Assembly (NCBI GenBank): GCA_963681505.1
Contig: OY811971.1
Span: 18,681,234-18,745,233 of the forward strand
Origin: Eunapius fragilis
Lineage: Eukaryota; Porifera; Demospongiae; Spongillida; Spongillidae
Direction: 5' to 3'
DNA length: 64,000 bases
The stretch's first letter is position 1; every line of letters begins with the position of its first letter. The notes beneath the pieces were generated by a model. The model saw nothing but the letters and a program-made list of their open reading frames with translations, was not told the DNA's origin and made no database searches. This document shows, in pieces, positions 345 to 64,000 of the stretch. Position numbers and translations under genes: made by a program.

Positions 345-860
345 GAACTGTTAACTTTAAGATCTAGAACTGTCACAAGTACATCCTATCAAATCTATGC
401 GCTGATGTTAGCCAGAAAATTTATAAACAAGCCAATGAATTAAAAGGAAGTACCGCGGGAAATGTATCTGTTTGTAGTCCACACAAGGCGCCCAATCATT
501 TAGAAATCATTTCGTGGTTGAACAGAAAATCACACGAAAATCAATACAAGCGTGTGATTTTTGTGTTATTTTCTGTTCAACCACGCAATGATTTTTAGAT
601 CATTCAACGTTTTTTTTCCCCCTGTGGTCGCATAGTGTTTGAGTGGCTTAAGCTACGCGCGATCATGCATGATACTTGCGGCAACGGATAGAGCACAAGT
701 TATAGACCCATAAAACAACACCAACTATGCTTCCAAGTGTCGTTCTCAACAAGATTAGCGCACATTTCGATTGCAATATTTCGTTGCTATAAATACTTTA
801 TGGACGTAGGTCATGTTATTCATTGCATGAAACAGGCTTATAATCGATTTATTGATTGAG
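345..860 (+). promoter_or_regulatory. Duplicated promoter region of beta-helix gene A
   Basis: This 5' flank is shared with gene B (about 17940-18496) through many blocks, such as GAACTGTTAAC, AAGTACCGCGGGAAATGT and GTGTTTGAGTGGCTTAAG, so promoter and gene were duplicated together. It holds a long palindrome (493-603) and a TATA-like box TATAAATA at 788-795, 66 bp before the first in-frame ATG at 861. The matching position in gene B reads TATTAATA, so the box is not conserved there. A third diverged copy of the proximal part lies at about 16060-16270. Confidence 0.6.
493..603. repeat. Long palindrome upstream of gene A
   Basis: Inverted repeat with arms of about 45 nt around a short loop. 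The left arm contains CGTGGTTGAACAGAAAATCA and the right arm CTGTTCAACCACG. The same hairpin stands upstream of gene B. It could be a foldback MITE carried along by the duplication or a structured regulatory element; the sequence alone does not decide. Confidence 0.75.
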
Positions 861-3800
861 ATGTTAATCATTGTATTCATCCTAGGTAGCTGTGTAGTTG
901 TTAGGTCCGATCAGGACAATACCACCGTTACCATTCCACCAGGCTATGCTCTTCAAGACTACCTCTGCAACGGGACACTCCAATCTAATATCACTGTTGT
1001 GTTGGACGATGGAGAACATCGTATATCTTCAGAACGGTCGTGCATTGTTTCCAATAAAGGCGGCATTACGATAACGGGATCACCAACCCAAGCGATAACA
1101 ATACGTTGCGAGGGGGAAGGGAAAGCGTTTGTGTTCCTTTCAATACAGATGTTGACAATAGAGAGGATCACATTCTTCAATTGCGGCATAGAACTTATAT
1201 CAATAGAGAATACTTTTATCTTGAACTGCACATTTCTGAACAGCTCAAACGGTGCCATATCGTCAAAATCGAGTAGCAACACATGGATAGCAAGTTGTGC
1301 ATTTAGCGATACTGGTGGTGGTGCTCTGATGTTGGTGAGATCGACGGGCAGTGTTGCTATAACCAAATGCACATTTCAGAACTGCTATAACAGTGCTAAT
1401 GATTTTGCTGGGGCTGTTAGCCTGTGGGGATCAACAGGCAATGCTCTTATCACAGACTGCACATTTCAGAACAACTGGGCTCGTGTAGGTGGTGCTGTTA
1501 GCCTGATTGAATCAACACTCAATGCTCATATCACAGGCTGCACATTTCAGAACAACAGTTGTGTTGATGGTGGTGGTGCTGTTCACGTGTCGATATCAGG
1601 CAATGCTAATATTGCAGACTGCACATTTCAGAACAACAGGGCTGCTGGTAATCCTGGGGGTGCTGTTTGGCTAGCCATGCATGAACAGTTGACAGGATCA
1701 ACATGCAATTCTCATATTACCAACTGCACATTTCAGAATAACAGTGCTGGAGGTGGTGGTGGTGCTGTGTGTCTGTTAGGTTCAACAGATAATGTTCATA
1801 TCACAGGCAGCTCATTTCAGAACAACAGGGCTGATCGTGAAGGTGGTGGTGCTGTTTATATGCTGATAGAAGGCAATCCTAACATCACAGACTGCACATT
1901 TCAGAACAACAGTGCTGCTGTTGGTGGTGGTGCTGTTTGGCTGTCTGGAACAGAAACTAGCAATCCTCATATCACCAACTGCACATTTCAGAACAACAGG
2001 GCTGATGGTGGTGGTGGTGGTGGTGCTGTTAACCTGCCTGGATTAACAGGTTATACTCATATCATAAGCTGCACATTTCAGAACAACAGGGCTGCTGGTT
2101 ATGGTGATGGTGGTGGTGCTATTAGCCTGTCTGGATCAACAGGCAGTGCTCATATCACACACTGCACATTTCAGAACAACAGTGCTAGCTATGCTGGTGG
2201 TGCTGTAGACTTGTATAGACAAAGTGGCAATGTTAGCATCACAAACTCAACGTTCAATATCAACAATGCTAAGATAGGAGGAGCTATACACATCAAGGAA
2301 ATGAGTTCATATCTATTCATCAGTGTGTCATCATTTACAAACAACACTTCACAAGCAGGAGCAGCAATGTATGCCATTAATAATGATTTTGATTCCTACA
2401 ATTCCCTTCCAACTGGCCCCATCACATTACAGGATGTAATTGTTAAATATCATCACTGCTCTTCTAATAAATGTGCAGGAACCATTTACTTCAGAGGGGT
2501 GACAATGGAGATCATTGGAAGCACCATCACAGGAAGCCATTTTGTATCTAATTCTCCCCAGGGTGCAATTGAAGGAGAAAATGGTGTTTTGCTGCTACAG
2601 GGTTACATCACATTTGCAAATAACACTGGAGAAAATGGAGGGGCCATACATCTGTCTAACAATGTTCCAGTATACTTTTATGACAATTGTAAGGTGGATT
2701 TTTTTCAAAATGTAGCAACTGAATATGGTGGTGCTATTTACAATAATGGAAAACTCTTTGCCCCAAATCAAGAGCCTACAACTGATGATTGTATTTTACG
2801 CTTTTATGTTGTTACTGAAGAACATTCTTGTAATGGCAGCTTCTCAATAACCTTCATGGGTAACCATGCACAACATGGTGGTCATGCTGTATATGCCACA
2901 CCTATTTATCAGTGCAATCATCACTTCAATTCCATTGGAAAATCTGGGTACTGTGACAATGATATGGTAAAATATTTCAACATTATTCCTTTACCAGATG
3001 ACACCAGTGATATCCAAGTACTCTCCTTCCCAGACCATGTGAACTATTGTGGCTGCAGTGATCCTTATTTGTGCACTGGTACAAGTCCACAACTTACCAC
3101 ACATCCTGGTAGGACTGTGAGAATTATGGTTACCCCAATTGGTAACGGAGAGCAACTATCACCTAGTGCAGTATACACACAAGTTGATAAGAATTACGTA
3201 CTGCTTGGACCTCGACAGAAGGCTCAGTGGGTAGGATCAGTATGTGGTACAATGGAGTACAACATTTATGGACCAGAAATGGCTTCACTGCAATTGCTTC
3301 TGTACAATGATCCTAGTGGTTCAAAAACAGTCATTGATGTGATGCTGTTACCATGTGAACCATGGTTCGTACAGACACAACATATGGAGTGTGTCTGTTC
3401 TGACATGTTCCCAATAATTGGAGTGACCTGTGATTCATTAGAGTATACTGTGACTAAAAATAAAACTTACTGGATTGGTGTGTACAATACCAATCTTCCA
3501 GCACTGGCTCGAACATGTCCTTTGGACTACTGCAATAGTAACATAACCAAGATGTCTCCAAATATGATTATGGACCTGTGCAATGGAGGACGTGCAGGTA
3601 TTATTTGTGGTCACTGCCCAGGAAACCTTAGTGTTGTCTTTGGTTCTTCCAAGTGCCAGGTGTGCTCAGATATGTGGCTGACCACACTTGTAATGTTTGC
3701 AGTGTTGGGTGTCTTCCTGGTAGCAGCACTGTTCTTCCTCAACCTCACCATCACACAGGGCACACTCTATGGACTCATCTTCTATGCCAACATTATCCAA

Positions 3801-5000
3801 GTCAATACTTCTATATTCTTCAACCAGTCCATTCTCAATCCATTGAAGGTCATTGTGTCATTGGTGAACCTTGACCTTGGGTTCCCTATGTGTTTTTATA
3901 ACAATATGGATGATGCTGACAAAGCTGGCCTTCAGTTTGCATTCCCTTCTTACCTCCTCATCCTCACCATGGCAACCATTCTGGTATGCCACTACTGTCT
4001 TCAACGATCTCCAACTACCTCCACTGGGTTCTCTCTTCATAGGGTTTCCACCATCATTGGAGAAAGAGCAGTTGGTGTTCTATCTACTCTCATCTACTTG
4101 TCATATTCCAAAATGTTGAGAAATGTCATTGATATTCTAACATATTCCACAGTTCACCTTCCCAGTTATGACATGTACATGTATGTCTGGTTCTATGATG
4201 GAAATGTGGACTACCTACATGGGAAGCATACTGTTTTGTTTGCGGTTGCTATGGCAGCAAGTATCCTGTTCCTTCTACCATACACCATTGCACTCACTTT
4301 CATTCCAATCATTGAGCAGCACAGTGAACACAACAGACTGTTCAACTATCTCCACAAGAAGGCCAACCAGATCAAACCAATGATTGATGCCCACTATGCC
4401 CCCTATAAGGGGGAGTGGCGATGGTGGCTGGGAGCAAGGCTTTGGCTTCTAGTTGTCATGTACAGTGTGAATCCAGTGTACAGTTCTGACAGACCATCTC
4501 TGCTTCTCACTATCCAGGGTACTATGGTGATCTTGTTTACAATAGCACAGGCAAGTATAATGCCATTTGGACAGTCACATCAAAAGACACATCAAAGCAA
4601 CAGACGTACCAACTTCTACAATCAGTTTTACAATAGCCTTGACATGTTTTACCTCCTCAACTACGCAGTACTGGCTATGTTAATGTTGTACATTACAGGT
4701 CAGAATTTAGACCAACAACAAATTGCTGCAGTGGCTGTTGGAGTTCTGGTGGGTCTGTATGTAGTGATGTTGATGGTCACTCTCTTGTACCATCTCATTG
4801 TGGCCATTCTCAAGGCATGCATGATGTGTGACATAACCAGAGAGAAGTTTAATGCACTATTTGAAAAGAAACATTATGAACCAATGGTTCCTATCAATAT
4901 GGAGCTGGATGATCCCACCAACAGTACTACTGTCAGTACCACGACCGTGGCAGTTCACTACGGTCTAAGAGAACCTCTGTGTGAAGATCCTGTAAATTAA
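861..5000 (+). CDS. Beta-helix ectodomain multipass membrane protein, paralogue A
   Basis: Single-exon gene of 1379 aa from the ATG at 861; the three codons before it (TTG ATT GAG) are open but lack an ATG. Residues 1-16 form a signal peptide (MLIIVFILGSCVVVRS). Residues of about 90-500 hold right-handed parallel beta-helix (pectate-lyase-fold) repeats: ten copies of about 28 aa with core CTFQNN followed by small residues and GGAV, in the style of Beta_helix/Pmp repeats. Many NxS/T sites and a Cys-rich juxtamembrane region follow. From about residue 935 on there are some eight or nine hydrophobic segments, starting with WLTTLVMFAVLGVFLVAALF, and a short cytoplasmic tail. The likely role is a cell-surface receptor, adhesion or sensing protein at the plasma membrane; no ligand or enzyme activity can be read. 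The C-terminal membrane domain is not recognised. AATAAA follows at 5070. Paralogue B has five fewer repeats. Confidence 0.85.
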   Translation: MLIIVFILGSCVVVRSDQDNTTVTIPPGYALQDYLCNGTLQSNITVVLDDGEHRISSERSCIVSNKGGITITGSPTQAITIRCEGEGKAFVFLSIQMLTIERITFFNCGIELISIENTFILNCTFLNSSNGAISSKSSSNTWIASCAFSDTGGGALMLVRSTGSVAITKCTFQNCYNSANDFAGAVSLWGSTGNALITDCTFQNNWARVGGAVSLIESTLNAHITGCTFQNNSCVDGGGAVHVSISGNANIADCTFQNNRAAGNPGGAVWLAMHEQLTGSTCNSHITNCTFQNNSAGGGGGAVCLLGSTDNVHITGSSFQNNRADREGGGAVYMLIEGNPNITDCTFQNNSAAVGGGAVWLSGTETSNPHITNCTFQNNRADGGGGGGAVNLPGLTGYTHIISCTFQNNRAAGYGDGGGAISLSGSTGSAHITHCTFQNNSASYAGGAVDLYRQSGNVSITNSTFNINNAKIGGAIHIKEMSSYLFISVSSFTNNTSQAGAAMYAINNDFDSYNSLPTGPITLQDVIVKYHHCSSNKCAGTIYFRGVTMEIIGSTITGSHFVSNSPQGAIEGENGVLLLQGYITFANNTGENGGAIHLSNNVPVYFYDNCKVDFFQNVATEYGGAIYNNGKLFAPNQEPTTDDCILRFYVVTEEHSCNGSFSITFMGNHAQHGGHAVYATPIYQCNHHFNSIGKSGYCDNDMVKYFNIIPLPDDTSDIQVLSFPDHVNYCGCSDPYLCTGTSPQLTTHPGRTVRIMVTPIGNGEQLSPSAVYTQVDKNYVLLGPRQKAQWVGSVCGTMEYNIYGPEMASLQLLLYNDPSGSKTVIDVMLLPCEPWFVQTQHMECVCSDMFPIIGVTCDSLEYTVTKNKTYWIGVYNTNLPALARTCPLDYCNSNITKMSPNMIMDLCNGGRAGIICGHCPGNLSVVFGSSKCQVCSDMWLTTLVMFAVLGVFLVAALFFLNLTITQGTLYGLIFYANIIQVNTSIFFNQSILNPLKVIVSLVNLDLGFPMCFYNNMDDADKAGLQFAFPSYLLILTMATILVCHYCLQRSPTTSTGFSLHRVSTIIGERAVGVLSTLIYLSYSKMLRNVIDILTYSTVHLPSYDMYMYVWFYDGNVDYLHGKHTVLFAVAMAASILFLLPYTIALTFIPIIEQHSEHNRLFNYLHKKANQIKPMIDAHYAPYKGEWRWWLGARLWLLVVMYSVNPVYSSDRPSLLLTIQGTMVILFTIAQASIMPFGQSHQKTHQSNRRTNFYNQFYNSLDMFYLLNYAVLAMLMLYITGQNLDQQQIAAVAVGVLVGLYVVMLMVTLLYHLIVAILKACMMCDITREKFNALFEKKHYEPMVPINMELDDPTNSTTVSTTTVAVHYGLREPLCEDPVN

Positions 5001-9002: not shown

Positions 9003-9099
9003 TAGTCTCGTACACCGACCCTGGTTCCCACAGCTGCGGGTGGATTACATCACATAATCCACCCGCAGCTGTGGGAACCAGGGTCTGGGTACGAGACTA
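9003..9099. mobile_element. Foldback MITE with TAGTCTCGTAC termini
   Basis: A near-perfect palindrome of 97 bp with ends TAGTCTCGTAC and GTACGAGACTA. It has the internal core AGCTGCGGGTGGATTACATC in both arms. The same termini and core occur in the large element at 10802-16451 and in the MITE at 16547-16676. A solo end GGTCTGGGTACGAGACTA sits at 9224-9241. Confidence 0.85.
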
Positions 9100-9209: not shown

Positions 9210-9285
9210 CGTACGTCATAGACGGTCTGGGTACGAGACTAAGGTAGAACTAGTAAGGACGCTTAATGCCAATTTTTGTTGTTAC

Positions 9286-10471: not shown

Positions 10472-10801
10472 ATAAATTATATCAATAAGCTACCCTACTA
10501 AACAGGTTGGCCTTATTGGAACGGGGGAGGGGTCAGAATAACCGCAGCCTATAACCACCGTTGATAATACCCTTTAGCGAACTACGCCCCTAAGTAGTTA
10601 ATTTGTTTTCACGTAGTACGAAAGCTAGTTAGTAAACCTCTTATTTAATTTCTTGGAGGCTAAGCGTGGAAGAAATGGCTGGCAGCGAAAGGGAAAGCGC
10701 CTATCCCAGTTAATAGTAAAGATGTCACGATGGACTTATGTAAACGATATCGCTCCACAGAATCGACCCGTTCATGCGGTCAAAGGAAGTAGGCCTAGCA
10801 T
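10472..10801. other. Insertion-site flank, no gene seen
   Basis: Mixed sequence without a supported gene. Its last nine bases, GCCTAGCAT (10793-10801), are the target duplication of the following element. Confidence 0.6.
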
Positions 10802-10905
10802 TAGTCTCGTACCCAGACCCACATCGCAGCTGCGGATGGAATACATCACCGCCTACGCGAGTAGTGGGTCTGGTGTCCTGTACAAATTTCTGTCCAGCGA
10901 TTACA
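10802..10905 (+). repeat. Left TIR of the Mutator-like element
   Basis: About 100 bp, inverted at 16353-16451. It contains its own short inverted repeat (AGACCCAC and GTGGGTCT) and the family core GCAGCTGCGGATGGAATACA. Confidence 0.85.
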
Positions 10906-11277
10906 TAATACTTACATTCAACGTCATGTATGAATAATATTATCTTCCGCAAGAATGCAATTAGTGTGTTAATGCTTTAATTAGCAAGCTCTACATTTCT
11001 GGACCTCTCCCTTCTTCGTACAATATCTTCCCCTATTAAGGAAGCGATTATCAGTGCACTTAGCATTGGTATCACCCGATCCTAAACGCCAGCTTTTTGA
11101 GTTATCTCTCATAAGTGAAGGTACTCCGGTTAAGGTAAATGTAAGCTATGCTGCATCACAAGTGCTGGGTCACAGGCTGCGGTGGGGAGCACCCCGCCAA
11201 GGCCTGCCCCCTTGCCTGGGACTACGGGAGCTCCAGCAACTGAAAGATCATCCTGACAAGGCCTGCATCTCCTGACG

Positions 11278-11800
11278 ATGTGTCCATGGACCTTCACTGC
11301 ACACACCCTACAACAGACCTCACTTTCCTTTCATTGCACGCAACCTAATGTCACTGCCCATTACTCCACAATTGACAATGTGGTGGGGCTCCTTAGCAGA
11401 TTTGAAAAAGGAGCCATGATGGCCAAGGTAGACCTAAAATCTGCATTCAGAATGGATCTAATCCAGCTAGGCCTCTGAATGGAGTTCAGAATGGCTCCAA
11501 TCCGGGCCTCTGAATAGAGTTCCCATTCAGAGGCCTGAATTGGAACCATTCTGAATGCTAATTTTGAGGAGGCTCCACCACCATATCCATCTTAATTCTG
11601 AAGCCAGAGCTGACATATGATGGTGGAACAGCTTCCTACCATCTTGAAATGGCATTTCTATATTCATCTCCCCAGATTGGAACTATGCAGAGTCCAATCC
11701 AGTTGTACACAGATGCCTCTGGCACCTGTGGGTATGGGGCCTACTTGGATGGGGCCTGGTTCAGAGGCAACTGCCCACACCAGTGCCTCAAGAGCTAGCA
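11278..11800 (+). pseudogene. Degenerate DIRS-type RT / RNase H fragment
   Basis: Around 11360-11450 the frame reads YSTIDNVVGLLSRFEKG followed by AMMAKVDLKSAFRM, a reverse-transcriptase motif with the TIDN and KxDLKSAF pattern of DIRS-like elements. After an interrupting inverted repeat (about 11444-11575) come ARADI, stop, WWNSFLPS, stop, NGISIF and then IQLYTDASGTCGYGAYLDGA, typical of the RNase H domain of the same elements. In-frame stops show decay. It is nested inside the Mutator-like element. The DIRS placement is from family knowledge. Confidence 0.6.
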
Positions 11801-12031
11801 GAGCTCTAGAAGGTCGCCTGAGACACCTCCTCCACAGAGCTGTGGCCACTTCAACGTCCACCCCCTACAGGGCAGGGATCTGGAAGCACTACGCCTTCTG
11901 ATACAAATTTAACCTGACCACCCTGCCAAGGAATCAAGCACTCCATCAACCTTTTTACTGGGTATCTCAGTCAAACGGGGAGTGAGGAAGGATCGTCTAT
12001 GAGAGAGGTAAGTTTATCAAAGTGGGCATGC

Positions 12032-12457
12032 TTACCCCTCTTGACCTCGCGCCTCCAGGGGTAGGGACATGGTAGTGAAGGCAGAAGGGGGCGTTGAGGA
12101 AGCTACTCGCCCGCGACCTAGCTGGTGTGGTGGGTCCTCTCGCGCCGCTTGAACTTCTTCTTGCATGCGTCGGATCAGCTGTGACATCGTTTCTCGCTCG
12201 CTCTTTGCCTTTTTGGCGCAATTGTGAGTGAGTGGCTTGCTTCGTACCTCTAGAACCGATAGTTCATCAAATAAATACCCATAGCAGATCAGAACGCCGT
12301 AACCTGTTGGTAAGCTTACGAACGTGTCCCGACCACGGACCACGTCTTCGATGACTCGGAACTGTTCGTCCTTAACTTTGGCATACCCCATACGTTCACC
12401 CGCCGACTGAATCGCACGTATTACCTGTACATCATCCATCTCTAGCCTTACCGCCAT
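12032..12457 (-). pseudogene. RecQ-like helicase N-terminal fragment, Walker A lost
   Basis: Minus-strand frame starting MAVRLEMDDVQVIRAIQSAG. It has the RecQ motif 0 (KDEQFRVIEDVVRGRDTFV) and motif I in the form LPTGYG-VL-ICYG, where active RecQ enzymes have GKS: the catalytic Lys and Ser are replaced. After FDELSVLE a donor-like GAG/GTACGA occurs and the similarity ends. RecQ enzymes are 3'-5' DNA helicases, but this piece lacks motifs Ia-VI and cannot be active. It is probably captured or decayed sequence within the mobile element. Confidence 0.6.
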
Positions 12458-12740
12458 AACCGATAACTTCGCACTATTGTTCCGAGTGGGTCAAAAAGGG
12501 TATAATCTGAACCTGCGGCAGCAGGTTCAATATAGGATTGATTGAGGGTTGATGAATGTCATTAATAAAACTTAACTAGCGTCTGGAGGGACAACGGAGA
12601 AACGGATCGCCTATCTCTTTATCGCGGCGGAATGAGAGCACAACGATCTACAGTTCTACGTTCTTTCCGTGTCATAAAACGGTGTGGTTATAGAGAAACA
12701 AACAATCCTGTTCCTCGTGCCCAGTCCTAAAATAATTCTC

Positions 12741-12742
12741 CA

Positions 12743-12794
<52 letters not shown>

Positions 12795-13177
12795 TTTCTT
12801 CTTCTTCTTCTTCTTCTTCTTCTTCTTCTTCTTCTTCTTCTTCTTCTTCTTCTTCTTCTTCTTCTTCTTCTTCTTCTTCTTCTTCTTCTTCTTCTTCTTC
12901 TTCTTCTTCTTCTTCTTCTTCTTCTTCTTCTTCTTCTTCTTCTTCTTCTTCTTCTTCTTCTTCTTCTTCTTCTTCTTCTTCTTCTTCTTCTTCTTCTTCT
13001 TCTTCTTCTTCTTCTTCTTCTTCTTCTTCTTCTTCTTCTTCTTCTTCTTCTTCTTCTTCTTCTTCTTCTTCTTCTTCTTCTTCTTCTTCTTCTTCTTCTT
13101 CTTCTTCTTCTTCTTCTTCTTCTTCTTCTTCTTCTTCTTCTTCTTCTTCTTCTTCTTCTTCTTCTTCTTCTTCTTCT
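12741..13177. repeat. (GTC)n then (TTC)n trinucleotide tract
   Basis: About 18 GTC repeats (12741-12794) run directly into about 128 nearly pure TTC repeats, ending at the N gap. Long TTC/GAA tracts form triplex DNA, which fits the assembly break. The poly-Arg/poly-Leu frame across it is not a gene. Confidence 0.98.
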
Positions 13178-13377
13178 NNNNNNNNNNNNNNNNNNNNNNN
13201 NNNNNNNNNNNNNNNNNNNNNNNNNNNNNNNNNNNNNNNNNNNNNNNNNNNNNNNNNNNNNNNNNNNNNNNNNNNNNNNNNNNNNNNNNNNNNNNNNNNN
13301 NNNNNNNNNNNNNNNNNNNNNNNNNNNNNNNNNNNNNNNNNNNNNNNNNNNNNNNNNNNNNNNNNNNNNNNNNNNNN
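13178..13377. other. Assembly gap (200 N)
   Basis: Exactly 200 N, the usual placeholder; true length unknown. The gap abuts the TTC tract and hides the 5' part of the following gene remnant. Confidence 0.99.
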
Positions 13378-13378
13378 G

Positions 13379-15080
13379 AAGAAGGCCTCTGTACGCGACA
13401 GCTACAAGGTCGATCCCGAAAAGAAGAAGGCCTCTGTACGCGACAGCTACAACGCAGATATTGAATCTAAGCGATCTGCTAAAAGGTGGCGATATGAAGA
13501 GGACCTCGAGGAGAACCGCGCTGCTAAAAGGCGGCTATATGAAGAGGACCTCGAGGAGAACCGTGCTGCTAAAAGGCGGCAATATGAAGAGAACCTCGAG
13601 GAGAACCGTGCTGCTAAAAAGCGGCGATATGAAGAGGACCTCGAGGAGAACCGTGCTGCTAAAAAGCGGCGATATGAAGAGGACCTCGAGGAGAACCGTG
13701 CTGCTAAAAGGCGGCGATATGAAGAGGACCTCGAGGAGAACCATGCTGCTAAAAGGCGGCGATATGAAGAGGACCTCGAGGGAAACCGCGCTGCTAACAG
13801 GCAGAAATACGAGGACAATTCAGCTGCCATTAAAGCATCTAAAAGGAGTCGGTATTGGAATGACCCCGCTGTCCAATTGGCTAAATGTGCTTCCGAGAGG
13901 ACGCGGTACCGCAGGGGTCACAGCACTACCACTACCACCCAAAGGTATGTTATGCAATGTTGTATTAACATTAAAAAGTTGTGCATGCAACATTTGTATA
14001 GAGCATAGTCGGGCGGTGTTTGGTCGGGCTTGTCACCCTACTACCTGACCAAACGCAGTAGTAGGGCCCGCACAACTATGTACAGCACGGATCTGCACAA
14101 AACCATTCACTTCACATGTAAAGCATGCAACTGTGTGTACAGTAGTAGTGTCTATTGTTTTGATCTGATGTATAAAAAGGCTTCCTTATTTAAAGGCTTC
14201 CTTATCTGTCTAGCCATGTACATATGTTGCAACTGTATGAATATAATTACAGTTGTAAGGGCTGAGGAGAACTATAGGTGAAATGACAATAACTGCAACC
14301 ATATCCTTCTCCCATATAGCTACTCCTTGTATGAACCCAAATCTCATGCACTAATGGAGTATAATGGTGGTCTTGAAATAGCTATTCTTAGGGATAGTGA
14401 GCTTCTAAGTGATGTAAATGATGCATGCCTTTTGTAAGTCTCATCCATTGCTAGCTCAAAAGGTTGTTACTAGATCTGCCCGTGCAGCAGTAAGTAAGAT
14501 TGGGGCAGAGGCATTGGTTTCTAAAGCACTAAGTGTACAAAGAGCAAAAGCAGGGTCATTGCTAAAAACTATCCGTGAAATAAATAGAATGAAAATAGGA
14601 GAAAGTGATATTTTAGTAGGGCATAGGTATCATACTGCTGGCTCTGAACCTTACTTTTTAAATACTTCGTACACTTACACAAAACGACTTGGGGCCATTC
14701 CAGTAGACCTCAATGGTAGGTGTGTAGTGGCAGAGGAGATAGGGGACAGAGATAAGGTTACCATGCGCCCCTTGAAATGGAAATGTACAAATGAGTGTCG
14801 CAACCTCACTAGTGAAGAAGTAGCAATAGTGTTGAGGACAAAGTCACTGTTCCAAATGTCTATTGTACACACCACCAGCACTAGCAGCAGACTTTCTTGC
14901 CACCACATGCCGCCAATAGTCTTGTACTTTGCAAATCAACTTGTTATAGCTATGTAAAATCAGACATTCTGCCCACACTTATAACGCTGCAGACCCTGTC
15001 CACAGATATTACTCACCTGAAAACATATCCTTATCAATCTACATGGTGCCATGTTATCCCAGATCTACATGCAGTCATGT
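13379..15080 (+). pseudogene. Transposon accessory gene remnant with 15-aa KR/E repeats
   Basis: From 13379 the frame reads KKASVRDSYKVDPEKKKASV, then about seven copies of a 45-bp unit coding AAKRRRYEEDLEENR, ending in TTTTTQR at a donor (AAAG/GTATGT, about 13944). After an intron an acceptor (CCCATATAG, about 14319) opens YSLYEPKSHALMEYNGG. A one-base frameshift near 14425 is needed to reach AFCKSHPLLAQK, ARAAVSKIGAEALVSKAL and LLKTIREINRMKIGE. Similar (K)KASARESY-type repeat proteins are abundant in sponge and cnidarian repetitive DNA (family knowledge). The 5' end is lost in the gap. Predicted product: basic/acidic helical repeat protein, function unknown. Confidence 0.55.
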
Positions 15081-15247
15081 AGTTCACTTCCTGAGTTCCC
15101 ACACTATCCAGCTTTACTTCATGTAGGATGTTTAGATTGGAGCATTTTCAAATTTGACCAATAAAATTTTAGCACATGCCGTTAATATGATGGAATTGGA
15201 CCAATAGAATTATAGCACAGTCTGCACACGTGTTAAGGCTTTGCAGG

Positions 15248-15255
15248 TATAAAAG
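15248..15255 (+). promoter_or_regulatory. TATA box of the proline-rich gene
   Basis: TATAAAAG, followed by a short presumptive noncoding exon ending AAAAAGAG/GTAAGA at 15299/15300 and an intron whose acceptor (ACATGTAG, 15410) directly abuts the ATG. Confidence 0.5.
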
Positions 15256-15410
15256 TCAGTCATGCACCCGCTGAATTATAGTGCACTTTGCAAAAAGAGG
15301 TAAGAATTTAATAATATACTCTATGTGGATTCACGTGTACACTTGCTTGAAAAAAGAATAAGGTAAAAATTTTAAAAATCATACTCTCTGTCTCTGTCAC
15401 GTACATGTAG

Positions 15411-15971
15411 ATGGCAGCTGAAGACCTTGCGGGGTTTTTTAATCAAGAGGGGTCGGAGGAGGAAGAGGATGACATACATCGTCCGACTCCTCTCCCCTTC
15501 ACCCCGCCACCTCCAGAAGCCCCGCCACTCCTACCACCACCAGCAGCACTGCCCCCACCACCACTACCAGCAGCGCTACCCCGGCTGGCACCACCAGCGC
15601 TGCCCCTGCCGGCACCACCAGCGCTGCCCCCGCCGGCACCACCAGCGCTACCCCCGCCAGCACCACCGGCGCTACCCCCGCCAGCACCACCGGCGCTGCC
15701 CCCGCCGGCACCACCAGCGCTGCCCCCGCCCGCGTTCCTGGCGGAACAACAAGCAGGGATAATCCCGCCACCACCACCACCAGCTGTGCTCCCGCCGGTA
15801 CCACCACCGCCTGTGCTCCCTCCCTGGCCTGCATGGCCACTGCCACCCTGGCTGAATGCAGCATGGCGGGGAGGCCGGGGAGGAGGACGTCCTTGCAGGC
15901 GACAAGGGCGCGGGCGAGGACAATTAACAATAAACGCTACAAATTCATATAATTATAATTATTATTATTAA
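15411..15971 (+). CDS. Proline-rich low-complexity protein in the mobile element
   Basis: 186 aa starting at an ATG placed exactly at a splice acceptor. It has an acidic N-terminus (EGSEEEEDD, about residues 13-22), a long proline/alanine/leucine region built of PPALPPPA repeats (residues about 45-110), more polyproline, and a basic Gly/Arg tail (RGGRGGGRPCRRQGRGRG) that could bind nucleic acid. A TATA box and a 110-bp leader intron precede it. It sits near the right TIR of the Mutator-like element and reads toward it. The family is not recognised. Low complexity means the frame could also stay open by composition; the promoter-intron-ATG arrangement is the main support. Confidence 0.45.
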   Translation: MAAEDLAGFFNQEGSEEEEDDIHRPTPLPFTPPPPEAPPLLPPPAALPPPPLPAALPRLAPPALPLPAPPALPPPAPPALPPPAPPALPPPAPPALPPPAPPALPPPAFLAEQQAGIIPPPPPPAVLPPVPPPPVLPPWPAWPLPPWLNAAWRGGRGGGRPCRRQGRGRGQLTINATNSYNYNYYY

Positions 15972-16059
15972 AGTTATTTGTTATTGCATTAAGAGATAGA
16001 GGGGATTGTCCAAATTATATATGCTCTTCCTACATTTCATCGACTACGGTGAAAAAAAA

Positions 16060-16270
16060 CCTATGCCGAGTAAGCTACGATCATGGTACTGGTGGTGTCA
16101 GATAGAGTACAAGTTTTATAACCATAAAACAGCGTCAAATATGCTACCAAGTGTTGTGTTAAAAAAGAGTAGCGCACATTCCAACGTTGTTCGATTGCAA
16201 TATTTCGTTGCTAAGCACACGCAGCCATTTCAATATTTCTGGGCGTAGGTCTTTTTGACCCACGTTTCAA
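16060..16270 (+). promoter_or_regulatory. Third, decayed copy of the beta-helix gene promoter
   Basis: Blocks such as ATAAAACAGCGTCAAATATG, CTACCAAGTGTTGTGTT, TAGCGCACATT and GATTGCAATATTTCGTTGCT line up in order with the proximal promoters of genes A (about 650-830) and B (about 18290-18460). The TATA position reads GCTAAGCAC and no ORF follows. The piece lies inside the right part of the Mutator-like element, so it was either captured or marks a deleted third gene. Confidence 0.65.
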
Positions 16271-16546
16271 TGTATTGAAACAGTAGTGTTTGATTGATAA
16301 CTAGAATATGCAATTAGCGCATACCTCAAATCTGATTGGTCGCTACAACATTCCGGCGCAAACTGGAGAGAAATTTGTACAGGAGGACACCAGACCCACT
16401 ACGGTGATGTATTCCATCCGCAGCTGCGATGTGGGTCTGGGTACGAGACTAGCCTAGCATTTGGTAAATATAAGGCAGTGCCCAGGACACGTCACCACTG
16501 ATCTGAACGCCATAAAAATCATAGCCGATTGTGTACCCGATATACG

Positions 16547-16676
16547 TAGTCTCGTACCCAGACCACACTAGCAGCTGCGGATGGATTACATCACCGCTAC
16601 GCTAGCGTAGCGGTGATGTAGCGTAGCGGTGATGTAATCCATCCGCAGCGGCTAGTGTGGTCTGGGAACGAGACTA
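16547..16676. mobile_element. 130-bp foldback MITE, TAGTCTCG family, with 9-bp TSD
   Basis: Ends TAGTCTCGTACCCAGACC and GGTCTGGGAACGAGACTA with the core GCAGCTGCGGATGGATTACA in both arms. CGATATACG is duplicated exactly on both sides (16538-16546 and 16677-16685). This independently shows that the TAGTCTCG family makes 9-bp target duplications. Confidence 0.9.
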
Positions 16677-18245: not shown

Positions 18246-18496
18246 GCTTATTTCCCCTGTGGTCGCATAGTGTTTGAGTGGCTTAAGGTACGCGCGATCA
18301 TACATGATACTTGCGGCAACGGATAGAGCACAAGTTATAGATCCATAAAACAGCACGACAAATATGCTACCAAGTGTCGTTCTCAACAAGATTAGCGCAC
18401 ATTTCGATTCCAATATTTCGTAGCTATTAATACTTTCTGGGCGTAGGTCATGTATACATTGCATGAAACAGGCTTGGAATCGATTTATTGATTGAG

Positions 18497-21400
18497 ATGT
18501 TAATCATTGTATTCATCCTAGGTAGCCGTGTAGTTGCTAGGTCCGATCAGGACAATACCACCGTTACCATTCCACCAGGCTACGCTCTGCAGGACTACCT
18601 CTGCAACGGGACACTCCAGTCTAATATCACTGTTGTGTTGGACGATGGAGAACATCACATATCTTCTGAACGGTCATGCAATATTTCCAATAAAGGTGGC
18701 AGCATTACGATAACGGGATCATCGACCCAAACGATAACAATACGTTGCGAGGGAGAAGGGACAGCGTTTGTGTTCCTTTCAATACAGATGTTGACAATGG
18801 AGAGGATTACATTCTTTAATTGCGGCATAGAACTTATATCAATAGAGAATACTTTTATCTTGAACTGCACATTTCTGAACAGCTCAAACGGTGCCATATC
18901 GTCAAAATCGAGTAACAACACATGGATAGCAAGTTGTGCATTTAGCAATACTGGTGGTGGTGCTCTGATGTTGGTGAGATCGACGGGCAGTGTTGCTATA
19001 ACCAAATGCACATTTCAGAACTGCTATAACAGTGCTAATGATTTTTCTGGTGCTGTTAGCCTGTGGGGATCAACGGGCAATGCTCTTATCACAGACTGCA
19101 CATTTCAGAACAACTGGGCTCGTGTAGGTGGTGCTGTTAGCCTGATTGGATCAACACTCAATGCTCATATCACAGGCTGCACATTTCAGAACAACAGTTG
19201 TGTTGGTGGTGGTGGTGCTGTTCACATGTCGATATCCGGCAATGCTAATATTGCAGACTGCACATTTCAGAACAACAGGGCTGATGGTTATGCTGATGGT
19301 GGTGGTGCTATTAGCCTGTCTGGATCAACAGGCAGTGCTCATATCAGACACTGCAAATTTCAGAACAACAGTGCTAGCTATGCTGGTGGTGCTGCGGACT
19401 TCTATAGACAAAGTGGCAATGTTAGCATCACAAACTCAACATTTCATATCAACAATGCTCAGATAGGAGGAGCTATACACATCAAGGAAATGAGTTCATA
19501 TCTATTCATCAGTGTGTCATCATTTACAAACAACACTTCACAAGCAGGAGCAGCAATGTATGCCATTCATAATGATTTTGATTCCTACAATTCCCTTACA
19601 ACTGGCCCCATCACTTTACAGGATGTAATTGTTAAAGATCATCACTGCTCTACTAATAAATGTGCAGGAACCATATACTTCAGAGGGGTGACAATGGAGA
19701 TCATTGGAAGCACCATCACAGGAAGCCATTTTGTATCTAATTCTCCCCAGGGTGCAATTGAAGGAGAAAATGGTGTTTTGCTGCTACAGGGTTACATCAC
19801 ATTTGCAAATAACACTGGAGAAAATGGAGGGGCCATACATCTGTCTAACAATGTTCCAGTATACTTTTATGACAATTGTAAGGTGGATTTTTTTCAAAAT
19901 GTAGCAACTGAATATGGTGGTGCTATTTACAATAATGGAAAACTCTTTGCCCCAAATCAAGAGCCTACAACTGATGATTGTATTTTACGCTTCTATGTCG
20001 TTACTGAAGAACATTCTTGTAATGGCAGCTTCTCAATAACCTTCATGGGTAACCATGCACAACATGGTGGTCATGCTGTATATGCCACACCTATTTATCA
20101 GTGCAATCATCACTTCAATTCCATTGGAAAATCTGGCTACTGTGACAATGATATGATGAAATATTTCAACGTTACTCCTTTACCAGATGACACCAGTGAT
20201 ATCCAAGTACTCTCCTTCCCAGACCATGTGAACTATTGTGGCTGCAGTGATCCTTATTTGTGCACTGGTACAAGTCCACAACTTACCACACATCCTGGTA
20301 GGACTGTGAGAATTATGGTTACCCCAATTGGTAACGGAGAGCAACTATCACCTAGTGCAGTATACACACAAGTTGATAAGAATTACGTACTGCTTGGACC
20401 TCGACAGAAGGCTCAGTGGGTAGGATCAGTATGTGGTACAATGGAGTACAACATTTATGGACCAGAAATGGCTTCACTGCAATTGCTTCTGTACAATGAT
20501 CCTAGTGGTTCAAAAACAACAGTCATTGATGTGAAGCTGTTACCATGTGGGCCATGGTTCACACTGGCACCAGATATGAGGTGTAACTGTTCTCAGATAT
20601 TCGCAACATTAGGAGTGGCCTGTGATGCATTAGAGTATACCGTGACTAAAAATAAAACTAACTGGATTGGTGTGTACAATAACACTCTTCCAGCAGTGGC
20701 TCAAACATGTCCTTTGGACTACTGCAATAGTAGCATAACCAAGATGTCTCCAGAAACGCTTATGGACCTGTGCAATGGAGGACGTGCAGGCATTACTTGT
20801 GGTCACTGCCTAGGAAACCTTAGTGTGGTCTTTGGTTCTTCCAAGTGCCAGGTGTGCTCAGATATGTGGCTGACCACACTTGTAATGTTTGCAGTGTTGG
20901 GTGTCTTCCTGGTAGCTGCACTGTTCTTCCTCAACCTCACCATAACACAGGGCACACTCTATGGGCTCATCTTCTATGCCAACATTATCCAAGTCAATAC
21001 TTCTATATTCTTCAACCAGTCCATTCTCAATCCATTGAAGGTCATTGTGTCATTGGTGAACCTTGACCTTGGGTTCCCTATGTGTTTTTATAACAATATG
21101 GATGATGCTGACAAAGCTGGCCTTCAGTTTGCATTCCCTTCTTACCTCCTCATCCTCACCATGGCAACCATTCTGGTATGCCACTACTGTCTTCAACGAT
21201 CTCCAACTACCTCCACTGGGTTCTCTCTTCATAGGGTTTCCACCATCATTGGAGAAAGAGCAGTTGGTGTTCTATCTACTCTCATCTACTTGTCATATTC
21301 CAAAATGTTGAGAAATGTCATCGATATTCTAACATATTCCACAGTTCACCTTCCTGGTAGTGACATGTATGTCTGGTTCTATGATGGAAATGTGATATAC

Positions 21401-22186
21401 CTATATGGGAAGCATACCTTTTTGTTTGTGGTTGCTATGGCAGCAAGTATCCTGTTCCTTCTACCATATACCATTGCCCTCACTTTCATTCCAATCATTG
21501 AGCAGCACAGTGAACACAACAGACTGTTCAACTATCTCCACAAGAAGGCCAACCAGATCAAACCAATGAATGATGCCCACTATGCTCCCTATAAGGGGGA
21601 GTGGCGATGGTGGCTGGGAGCAAGGCTTTGGCTTCTAGTTGTCATGTACAGCTTAAATCCAGTGTACAGTTCTGACAGGCCATCTCTGCTCCTCACTATC
21701 CAGGGTACTATGATGATCTTGTTCACTATAGTACAGGCAAGTATAATGCCATTTGGACAGTCACATCAAAAGACACATCAAAGCAACAGACTTACCAACT
21801 TCTACAATCGGTTGTACAATAGTCTTGACATGTTTTACCTCCTCAACTACACTGCACTGGCTATGTTAATGTTGTACATTACAGGTCAGAATTTAGACCA
21901 ACAACAAATTGCTGCAGTGACTGTTGGTGTTTTGGTGGGTCTGTATGTAGTGATGGTGATGGTCATTGTCCTGTACCATCTCATTGTGGCCATTCTCAAG
22001 GCATGCATGATGTATGACATAACCAGAGAGAAGTTTAATGCATTATTTGAAAAGAAAAAATACGAACCAATGGTTCCAATCAATATGGAGCTGGATGATC
22101 CCACCAATGGTACTACTGTCAGTGCCATGACCGTGGCAGTTCACTACGGTCTAAGAGAACCTCTGTGTGAAGATCCTGTAAATTAA
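18497..22186 (+). CDS. Beta-helix ectodomain multipass membrane protein, paralogue B
   Basis: 1229 aa, single exon, from the ATG at 18497. Signal peptide MLIIVFILGSRVVARS, the same beta-helix architecture as paralogue A but only five CTFQNN-type repeats against ten, then a common Cys-rich juxtamembrane part and the same eight or nine hydrophobic segments and tail. The region from about 19500 to 20510 is almost identical to A. A patch at about 20530-20780 (from the LLPC motif to GHCLGNLS) differs in many residues, after which identity returns, a pattern of patchwork conversion. The TATA position reads TATTAATA and a 442-bp MITE plus poly-G lie upstream, so expression may differ from A. Presumed surface protein; function unknown. 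Confidence 0.85.
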   Translation: MLIIVFILGSRVVARSDQDNTTVTIPPGYALQDYLCNGTLQSNITVVLDDGEHHISSERSCNISNKGGSITITGSSTQTITIRCEGEGTAFVFLSIQMLTMERITFFNCGIELISIENTFILNCTFLNSSNGAISSKSSNNTWIASCAFSNTGGGALMLVRSTGSVAITKCTFQNCYNSANDFSGAVSLWGSTGNALITDCTFQNNWARVGGAVSLIGSTLNAHITGCTFQNNSCVGGGGAVHMSISGNANIADCTFQNNRADGYADGGGAISLSGSTGSAHIRHCKFQNNSASYAGGAADFYRQSGNVSITNSTFHINNAQIGGAIHIKEMSSYLFISVSSFTNNTSQAGAAMYAIHNDFDSYNSLTTGPITLQDVIVKDHHCSTNKCAGTIYFRGVTMEIIGSTITGSHFVSNSPQGAIEGENGVLLLQGYITFANNTGENGGAIHLSNNVPVYFYDNCKVDFFQNVATEYGGAIYNNGKLFAPNQEPTTDDCILRFYVVTEEHSCNGSFSITFMGNHAQHGGHAVYATPIYQCNHHFNSIGKSGYCDNDMMKYFNVTPLPDDTSDIQVLSFPDHVNYCGCSDPYLCTGTSPQLTTHPGRTVRIMVTPIGNGEQLSPSAVYTQVDKNYVLLGPRQKAQWVGSVCGTMEYNIYGPEMASLQLLLYNDPSGSKTTVIDVKLLPCGPWFTLAPDMRCNCSQIFATLGVACDALEYTVTKNKTNWIGVYNNTLPAVAQTCPLDYCNSSITKMSPETLMDLCNGGRAGITCGHCLGNLSVVFGSSKCQVCSDMWLTTLVMFAVLGVFLVAALFFLNLTITQGTLYGLIFYANIIQVNTSIFFNQSILNPLKVIVSLVNLDLGFPMCFYNNMDDADKAGLQFAFPSYLLILTMATILVCHYCLQRSPTTSTGFSLHRVSTIIGERAVGVLSTLIYLSYSKMLRNVIDILTYSTVHLPGSDMYVWFYDGNVIYLYGKHTFLFVVAMAASILFLLPYTIALTFIPIIEQHSEHNRLFNYLHKKANQIKPMNDAHYAPYKGEWRWWLGARLWLLVVMYSLNPVYSSDRPSLLLTIQGTMMILFTIVQASIMPFGQSHQKTHQSNRLTNFYNRLYNSLDMFYLLNYTALAMLMLYITGQNLDQQQIAAVTVGVLVGLYVVMVMVIVLYHLIVAILKACMMYDITREKFNALFEKKKYEPMVPINMELDDPTNGTTVSAMTVAVHYGLREPLCEDPVN

Positions 22187-61765: not shown

Positions 61766-64000
61766 ATGGATGTCGAATCAGACCCTTGGTGTGCGTATGC
61801 AAAATGCTTACGACACGACCTGAAGTTGTGCACTAACCTTGTGTTGGATTTCGGAAATCTTCAAGCGTGCCTCGACGTCGCACAGAAGTATAAAGCCTGG
61901 CAGGGAAAGGATGACACAACGAAATGTTTTGATTACGAATCGTTTCTATGGGATTACCTCGGCGACGAAAACGCAACACCATTTCCAAGACTGACCTCGC
62001 TCACAGTTAGCGGACTTCATCTTGCAACTGGTATTAGCAACCGCAAAGGTGATTTGAAGTACGTAGTGTCTTCTAACACTTATGATCAGGTCTTCCACTG
62101 TAGGTTCAGAATTGATTAAGTTCTTCACCCAACTCAAAAATATTGAGAAGTTGGGTATAAATGGTTATTGCCCTTTTATCGACTCCATGCAGGTACGTAC
62201 GCATCCATGCCTTTTGGCGTTTTTTTTTTCTTGTACCGCATTCATGCACAGTATTCTTTTCATTCATTTATTGATATATTTATTTATTTACACTGGCTTA
62301 CAAAACGAGCTGCTTATATAGCGTTTTTGTTTCAGTTTTGGAACATGGATAAGCTACAAGAGGTGTGCTTAGACTCTGCCAGTATTCACAGCCTATCTCC
62401 ATCCATTGGAAATCTCAAATTTCTGAAACATCTCTCTCTTAATGCAAATGCACTATCAGATCTCCCTATCACATTGGGCTTCTGCCAAAATCTTAAAACA
62501 TTAAGTTTGGATGCTAACTCATTTTCCTACATTCCTAGTGCTATTCTTATGATAAATAATTTTAAACACTTGAGCATTACAGGTAATCCTCTGGTTAGAT
62601 GTGTACAGAATGTCCCACTGAAGGAGTTAGCAGCTATTCCCTACACCCTTGCTTCACTACCAGTCATAAGCACGTCATCAGTGCTTTTAAACTACATGGA
62701 CCACTGGAGATTGGATAGCCTTGTTCATAAGGAACTTGAAATGCTGAACTATCCTATGTCCAAAGTAGCTCTCTGTGGATGGTGCAGCCAGCAGATATTA
62801 CAAGGTAAGTTTAAACTGACTCATTTAAAAAAAAAGAATTTCATTTGTACTTTTTCATCACAAAGAACATGCTGTTGAGGTTTTCCTGGCACTTTATCTT
62901 GGGCTGTGCAATGTACCAGTCCAACTTCAAACATGCAGTACAAAGTGCCTGCAGAAACTGGTATTGCATTTAAATGAACAGAACTTAGATGATAAAAATT
63001 GCGTATTAGACAATGATCCTGTTACTGTCCATCCATCTGCATATAATCTTCCTTCTGGTGAGCGGTAGTAATAATGATTCAGTTGAGAGCTTTTTGTAAT
63101 GAAAAACATTTCAGGCACTGAAAGGATGTTATCAGAAAGCGTAGTGGAACTCGATCTATCTGGTACCTGCATAAAAAATAGTTTGCAAGGTCGATGTCAG
63201 GTATGGTTACTGTTGGGAATATTATATGTTTAATGATATAAATAAATTGGTTATTAATTTTAACATTAAAAGAATTCCTTTCGCAGGTTTGGGAAATGAC
63301 TAGTGTGAAGAAGCTGTCCTTAGATCACACAAATATTAGCAGCCTATCCCCCTCTGTAGGAAAGATGAAAACTCTGGAGATTCTATCCCTTGAATCCAAT
63401 AGCCTTTCTGACCTCCCTCTTACTCTGGAGTACTGTCAGAAATTAATTGGCCTAAATTTAAAGGAAAATCATTTTGCCTTCATCCCAGGGGTGGTGCTGA
63501 AGCTCAGAAACCTCAAGGAGTTGAAGCACTCCATCATACCTGCAAAGGGATGTGAGCAATCAGTACAGGCCATGTTTCCAGGGCCATCAGCACAGACTTA
63601 TCAAAGTCCATCTTCTCTGCAGAGTATATGCATGGCTACAGTTATTGTAAATCACATAGATTACTGGCATCCCAGGAATGGCACTTCTGAACAATGGGTA
63701 GCAGCAGCTAACAATCTTGCATCAAGCATAACACTCTGTCACAGATGTGGCTCATTGATTTCTCAAGGTAAACATTTGTGGAATGCACGTAACTAGCCTT
63801 CATTCAGTATTAATTCTAGAATATGCTGTGAAGGTATCACTGCATTCATACCATGGAACGGATGTTGTTCCATTCCTATTAAAAGCGTGCAATGTTAAAT
63901 GCCATCAAGAAATGGCATCTTGCCTAATGGAACAGAATGGAGCTACATCAAAATTGAATACATTAAAGAAGGGAACTATATTATGTGAGAGTGAAGGAAG
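61766..64000 (+). CDS. Leucine-rich-repeat protein, 7 exons, 3' end outside window
   Basis: Exons fitted by borders and phase: 61766-62048, 62104-62192, 62336-62804, 62866-63057, 63115-63200, 63287-63767, 63820 to beyond 64000. N-terminus MDVESDPWCAYAKCLRHDLK, then plant/SDS22-like short LRRs: exon 3 has SLSPSIGNLKFLKHLSLNAN and LPITLGFCQNLKTLSLDANS; exon 6 has SLSPSVGKMKTLEILSLESN and LPLTLEYCQKLIGLNLKENH. Each LRR exon ends in a CxxC (CGWC, CHRC) and is followed by an exon with two more Cys about 30-40 residues on, suggesting a small zinc-binding module like the tail of LRRC58-type proteins (tentative). Probably an intracellular scaffold or adaptor, since no signal peptide or membrane segment is seen. 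No frame breaks. Confidence 0.75.

Follow-up and report, generated by a model that had tools for sequence, protein, structure and literature searches.

Nested transposons in a 5.65-kb terminal-inverted-repeat element of the sponge Eunapius fragilis, and RecQ-like genes beside the same termini

Does an element that holds pieces of several genes between terminal inverted repeats (TIRs) represent gene capture by one transposon, or transposons lodged inside one another? The question is raised by a 5.65-kb element of the sponge Eunapius fragilis, found in the 64,000-bp stretch that we refer to as the window (assembly GCA_963681505.1, contig OY811971.1, positions 18,681,234 to 18,745,233, forward strand). 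A sequence-only reading had described it as a single gene-capturing composite, similar to the Pack-MULEs formed by Mutator-like elements (MULEs), with a cargo of a DIRS reverse transcriptase (RT)/RNase H remnant, a RecQ N-terminal fragment, a KR/E repeat gene, a piece of beta-helix gene promoter and a proline-rich gene. We report that most of this cargo consists of two other elements, here called X and KRE, which were nested later; only the DIRS-like and RecQ-like scraps belong to the outer element (Table 1).

Table 1. Features of the nested locus and of an adjacent foldback (TSD, target-site duplication; MITE, miniature inverted-repeat transposable element; positions are those of the window)
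Feature	Position	Strand	Basis or remark
Left 9-bp TSD of outer element, GCCTAGCAT	10793..10801		Sequence read
Left TIR of outer element	10802..10897	+	Perfect 50/50 bp to 10851, broken match on to 10897
Left part of outer element	10802..12471	+	blastn to 20 fetched loci, colinear with ~1.85-kb copies
DIRS-like RT/RNase H/recombinase remnant	10985..11960	+	Reading frames, present in ordinary copies
RecQ-like N-terminal remnant, 54 codons	12296..12457	-	ATG at 12457
Left 4-bp target duplication of X, TTCG	12468..12471		Junction reading
Left end of X, starting CACTATTGTT	12472..12504	+	First 27 bp multicopy
KRE within X	12505..16065	+	3' palindrome and most of X interior missing; joint 16066-16070
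200-N assembly gap after CTT microsatellite	13178..13377		Sequence read
KR/E repeat frame of KRE, 45-bp repeats	13379..14008	+	Reading frames, KRE copies
Proline-rich frame of KRE	15411..15971	+	Reading frames, KRE copies
Right end of X, finishing CAGTAGTG	16071..16288	+	Holds beta-helix-upstream-like 16101-16180
Right 4-bp target duplication of X, TTTG	16289..16292		One C-to-T at CpG
Right part of outer element	16289..16451	+	First four bases (16289-16292) are the right target copy of X
Right TIR of outer element	16363..16451	-	Inverted match to left TIR
Right 9-bp TSD of outer element, GCCTAGCAT	16452..16460		Sequence read
130-bp foldback MITE with related TIR	16547..16676		Near-perfect foldback

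An outer element and the insertions it received

The outer element, 5,650 bp long without its TSDs, has TIRs identical at 50/50 bp (10802-10851 versus 16402-16451) and an extra 22-bp match further in (10876-10897/16363-16384); on these termini, the perfect 9-bp TSD and a 5.65-kb span with a 200-N gap, the sequence-only reading was accurate. In the 219-Mb genome, the terminal 17-mer TAGTCTCGTACCCAGAC occurs with ≤1 mismatch at 3,794 places (1,900 + 1,894), compared with three (1 + 2) for its reversed-pattern control in the same search, and the terminal 50-mer with ≤3 mismatches at 99 + 84 places (control, 0), which rules out chance and assigns the termini to a family of very great size. Among 20 fetched loci of this family one (L040) shows the left end only, and all 19 measurable copies, those with both ends, have an exact 9-bp TSD (poly-G in L034), while left and right flanks paired from different copies agree in 0/342 cases. 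The pairing of the two ends is therefore real, and, as had been proposed, the element is non-autonomous, its TIRs and TSD are of the MULE type and its ends derive from one insertion. According to PMC6446971, MULEs are characterized by TSDs of 8-11 bp and long TIRs; here the TSD is 9 bp in 19/19 copies and in the window, and the 50/50-bp identity is prolonged by a broken match to ~96 bp.

Other copies with the same TIR, which the sequence-only reading had proposed to look for, take an ordinary form of ~1.85 kb with TSDs of their own: 15 of the 19 both-ended copies are 1,795-1,947 bp long, and the other four measure 2,375, 2,754, 3,665 and 5,806 bp. The standard copies align by blastn to window positions 10802-12471 and 16289-16451. 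The uninterrupted junction between these two parts, TAACTTCG/ATTGATAAC, is identical in 18/20 fetched copies, which are all the copies where it can be read (L036 and L040 are without one side of it), and the 3.8 kb that separates the parts in the window is thus a later nesting. Pack-MULE cargo moves with its element; the stretch 12472-16288 is absent from all 18 of the 20 copies with a readable junction, and the DIRS-like and RecQ-like scraps do travel with the outer family. Identity of 15 standard copies to the window copy is 94-97% outside gaps (median 96.2%), and the TIRs are near-invariant among the fetched copies. The case for fairly recent movement, which had been drawn from intact termini around decayed cargo, is weak, since an element that has received two successive insertions and a probable deletion must be old enough to hold them.

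The two scraps that do belong to the outer element are both decayed. The frames that had been called a DIRS RT/RNase H remnant are present in ordinary copies, and we take them to be DIRS-like from their motifs; that family label finds no support in Pfam, which to E = 1 returned no match for two of the frames and DUF6734 (E 0.22) for the third. For the RecQ-like frame, which likewise had no Pfam match to E = 1, the top PDB match is RecQ (E = 0.0022), and it is 33-34% identical to two RecQ-like genes of this genome. Codon cells of this piece, scored in 16 sequences of the 1.85-kb family against the commonest codons, comprise 31 nonsynonymous (3 of them stops) versus 7 synonymous cells, which are not independent events; the piece shows no purifying selection in this family and is not conserved.

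X is a transposon that inserted in the outer element, as established by its CAC..GTG ends, its 4-bp duplications and an empty site that reads CTTCGATTG in other outer-family copies. The 3.8-kb insert begins CACTATTGTT and finishes AACAGTAGTG. The left 27-mer of the X family is found at 93 places in the genome (≤3 mismatches, window included; control, 0), and the right end in the window is 98.2-99.5% identical to nine fetched X copies. Exact 4-bp TSDs (ATCA, GAGT, CCAG, CCTT and TTCC) flank 5/5 other X copies, chosen since both their ends had been located, and these five end pairs span 2.3-2.6 kb. X resembles the CMC (CACTA/EnSpm-Mirage-Chapaev) transposons in those ends (CACTATTG/CAGTAGTG) and in its short TSD; a 4-bp TSD is that of Chapaev and suggests this group for X. 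EnSpm elements also end in 5'-CAC..GTG-3', according to PMC12730594. A Helentron reading of X was dropped, as its flanks break the T^T rule and its 4-bp TSDs are exact.

The piece of beta-helix promoter came with X. Positions 16101-16180 are indeed homologous to 687-766 and 18322-18403, upstream of two beta-helix genes, but the homology is present in 9/9 fetched X copies (74-76% over ~175 columns), which assigns it to X whichever the direction of copying. The two right-handed beta-helix/PMP-repeat frames lie at 831-5000 (1,389 aa) and 18467-22186 (1,239 aa); their upstream regions are 80% homologous to each other and also resemble the right end of X.

KRE sits within X. In the window the target GGGTATAATTGG, uninterrupted in 5/5 X copies, is replaced by GGGTATAA/TCTGAACC. 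The left-end 25-mer of KRE has 827 places in the genome (≤1 mismatch, window included; control, 0), and the 40-bp flanks of that end are visibly different in 9/9 other loci. Two long KRE copies (K45 and K46), 3.4-3.6 kb in size, are colinear with 12505-16065 apart from two stretches and both contain the KR/E and proline-rich regions; the frames that had been listed as captured genes thus exist, but as parts of a separate high-copy element. Pfam gave PF17087 at E 1.1e-4 for the KR/E repeats, below the curated cut-off and taken as chance, and to E = 1 had no match for 14418-14954 or the proline-rich frames. Both K45 and K46 finish in a ~297-bp palindrome that is absent from the window, where the sequence jumps at 16066-16070 to the last 218 bp of X.

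KRE is a candidate non-autonomous Helitron: it begins with TC at an A^T target (ATC at the left end in 9/9 other loci and in the window), has hairpins near both ends, is gene-bearing, and shows no TSD by eye in K45 or K46. Helitrons finish in CTRR with a hairpin, unlike KRE, for which CTTG stands where K45 and K46 diverge. The ~33-nt centre of the KRE palindrome is inverted between these two copies (L045 + L097 and L046 + L096), which suggests flipping at the hairpin. Nesting also occurs in the opposite order, a 1.88-kb outer-family copy (L023) being situated within a KRE element with KRE-like sequence on both flanks. In L038 (2044-2832), a 789-bp relative with a TIR 82-84% similar is nested in a copy with a 9-bp TSD, and is flanked on both sides by ACGTATTAC.

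We consider it very likely that the locus is a three-level nest, in which a 1.85-kb TIR element received X, X received KRE and a deletion followed, with a RecQ remnant that most likely goes back to elements with the same TIR. Under this history, a ~1.85-kb non-autonomous transposon would have inserted at GCCTAGCAT, mobilized in trans by a transposase of the cut-and-paste type that recognizes the ~50-100-bp TIR and staggers its cuts by 9 bp, a MULE-type mechanism that we infer from TIR and TSD. Its body would have held the DIRS-like scrap and the first ~54 RecQ-like codons, read inward from the right TIR. X would then have entered at TTCG, and KRE would have entered X in a Helitron-like manner (A^T, no visible TSD), bringing the KR/E and proline-rich frames; a deletion may finally have removed the KRE 3' palindrome and ~2 kb of X. 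The 1.85-kb family would itself have arisen, by internal deletion, from elements that share its TIR and bear RecQ.

RecQ-like genes beside the same TIR

In the window the RecQ ATG is ~173 bp inside the right TIR, not counting the insert and one of the two target copies (177 bp with both copies included). RecQ-like 5' ends were read at six other loci, five from a RecQ profile search (L091-L095) and one (L103) for its RecQ similarity, none of them picked for having a TIR. In four (L091, L092, L095 and L103) the TIR is upstream in the inward direction only, with a score above all 300 shuffles, and 210-227 bp separate the TIR start from the RecQ ATG. The signal at L094, where the ATG is at 176 bp, is weaker, as 1/300 shuffles reached its score. 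The RecQ-like genes of L091, L092 and L095, which start inside the TIR, have the full ATP-binding motif SLPTGSGKS, and L103 is 70% identical to the outer-family copy L031 over 337 columns that run from the TIR into RecQ.

With the 54-residue RecQ fragment as query, 150 matches were listed of 486 genome candidates, and the strongest among those listed include the window, L024 and L031. The one diverged match of the 150 that was read, L103, carries the TIR. No host RecQ donor was found in the loci read, a set that contains L103 alone of the matches of 60-66% identity. The N-terminal RecQ fragment is present as had been claimed, but its capture from the host is improbable given TIR-linked RecQ elsewhere: the scrap probably descends from relatives that have this TIR and bear RecQ, and RecQ is most simply read as a gene of this transposon clade. 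Whether there is indeed a clade of TIR transposons with ends TAGTCTCGTNCCCAGACC, 9-bp TSDs, ~3,800 ends, many short foldback MITEs and larger members with RecQ 176-227 bp inside the TIR is, in our judgement, an evenly balanced matter. The window's 1.85-kb family would be a deletion derivative of this clade.

Elsewhere in the genome, a TIR pair on C1 (3453603 + and 3464055 -, 10.5 kb), known from match positions only, lies around a RecQ gene. RecQ matches also fall within very long open frames at C9:7810186 (1,564 aa) and C18:6245368 (1,241 aa), which are possible intact helicases.

Rival histories and relation to known systems

The broad capture reading, by which one MULE acquired the pieces of RecQ, KR/E, proline-rich gene and beta-helix promoter and transposed with them as a single 5.65-kb element, agrees with the mixed coding scraps between perfect TIRs and TSD, and with the DIRS-like and RecQ pieces in many copies of the core family. 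We nonetheless find it very improbable: X and KRE, with ends of their own and copies elsewhere, contain the KR/E, proline-rich and beta-helix-like pieces, the insert is missing at the junction in every readable copy, and other families, though diverged, also have RecQ within this TIR. A long ancestral form, from which the 1.85-kb copies arose by internal deletion, would explain the one junction common to readable copies as the product of a single deletion master, but it is scarcely credible, as the inserted part is bounded by transposon ends of its own and a 4-bp duplication and has unrelated copies in the genome, and X has its own TSDs at other sites. The 200-N gap and the long CTT microsatellite inside the insert might point to a misassembly at the gap; this too is highly improbable, as a single KRE copy structure continues on both sides of the gap and the X ends and target duplication are correctly placed on two sides.

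Unlikely, but to be taken seriously, is a narrower capture in which an ancestral TIR element took RecQ once from the host, RecQ then diversified together with the TIR, and the DIRS-like piece came later, so that the core alone would be Pack-TIR-like. Such Pack-TIRs do occur in animals, where PMC8277862 counts 370 of them, and no Pack-MULE, in 100 genomes surveyed. The 31 versus 7 codon cells, with no purifying selection on the RecQ piece in the 1.85-kb family, and the room that the listed matches leave for a host donor are also in keeping with it; the SLPTGSGKS-bearing genes that begin inside the TIR look rather like a standing gene of the element.

Several observations weigh against the favoured history of a nest with a RecQ remnant from same-TIR relatives. 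The two 4-bp copies at X differ by one base (TTCG/TTTG). About 330 bp of KRE (14530-14856) match neither K45 nor K46, nor does the microsatellite/N stretch, and with the KRE 3' end missing in the window the insertion of KRE in X is seen from one side only. As to RecQ, the TIR of L093 is not significant (24/300 shuffles reach its score), and L091 and L092 are near-identical, which reduces the RecQ-TIR link to three clear families and one weak one. None of the sequences read spans a whole autonomous element; a second TIR and TSD were read for 0 of the RecQ loci, the outer flank of L095 being poly-C. Most of the 150 listed matches lie outside the loci read, which leaves room for a free host donor. 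Finally, no match to either of two MULE profiles, PF10551 (45 matches in the genome) and PF21056 (54 matches, compared by eye), lies near the TIR-bearing RecQ genes.

The autonomous MULE partner that the sequence-only reading had proposed to seek was not found linked to these termini by either profile or by tblastn. The nearest of the 45 PF10551 matches to the 100 listed of 183 TIR places is 15.0 kb away; the longest open reading frame of each of 30 MULE loci had no tblastn match in the family loci; no linked TIR was found in those 30 loci; and Pfam revealed no transposase in nine frames of the longer copies L036 and L037. A MULE match lies 4.2 and 8.9 kb from two of 26 RecQ rows (C4 and C6, respectively); if RecQ is read inward, starting at its TIR, the match would be on the side external to the element. 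Two candidates were rejected: MULE cluster 2 has unrelated termini that are tandem-repeat ends, and an 18-20-bp TIR-like stretch in L077 is ~100 bp outside the end of its MULE family, in the wrong direction to close it. MULE superfamily membership of the outer element is probable by its termini and, because the transposase was not found, unproven by enzyme.

The outer element is like non-autonomous MULEs and Mutator MITEs in its TIR of ~50-100 bp, its 9-bp TSD and its many short foldback relatives, and unlike them in that a MULE transposase was found neither in the tested copies nor linked to the TIR, inside which RecQ-like genes occur. With the Pack-MULEs of plants and the Pack-TIRs of animals it shares gene scraps between TIRs, non-autonomy and multiple copies with distinct TSDs; it differs in that most of the window's cargo is nested transposons and the RecQ scrap is probably element-derived. 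Kolobok transposons duplicate TTAA, whereas the TSDs of the 1.85-kb family are 9 bp long and of mixed sequence. Two of that group, KolobokH of fungi and Kolobok-1_CCri, are TIR DNA transposons that carry a RecQ helicase, as stated in PMC9587614. The listings and passages on RecQ in transposons that we consulted contain no report of RecQ in a transposon with a 9-bp TSD. The RecQ-bearing clade, if real, would be distinct from KolobokH, and would represent either an undescribed superfamily or a variant of MULEs with an acquired RecQ.

As a nest the locus is ordinary; what merits following is the RecQ-TIR association. A claimed Pack-MULE case is removed, and the locus illustrates how insertions nested in one another can mimic gene capture; what decides between the two is whether other copies show the empty site. 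If the RecQ-TIR link is true, a clade of cut-and-paste transposons with 9-bp duplications would have a helicase as a regular component; this would bear on the repair or amplification of such elements and make RecQ a handle for finding their transposase. Mutator TIRs have been placed at chromatin-loop anchors in placozoans (PMC12221973).

Foldback relatives and other features of the window

The foldback MITE to the right of the nest has an exact 9-bp TSD of its own, CGATATACG (16538-16546/16677-16685), and its fold as RNA has an energy of -114 kcal/mol (z = -19). At 9003-9099 there is a further foldback, whose TIR is of the same type, with an additional TIR end nearby at 9225-9241. Farther along, the segment 38887-41998 is NLR-like, with Death and NACHT domains in one frame and leucine-rich repeats in the next, and further leucine-rich-repeat frames are present at 62147-63796.

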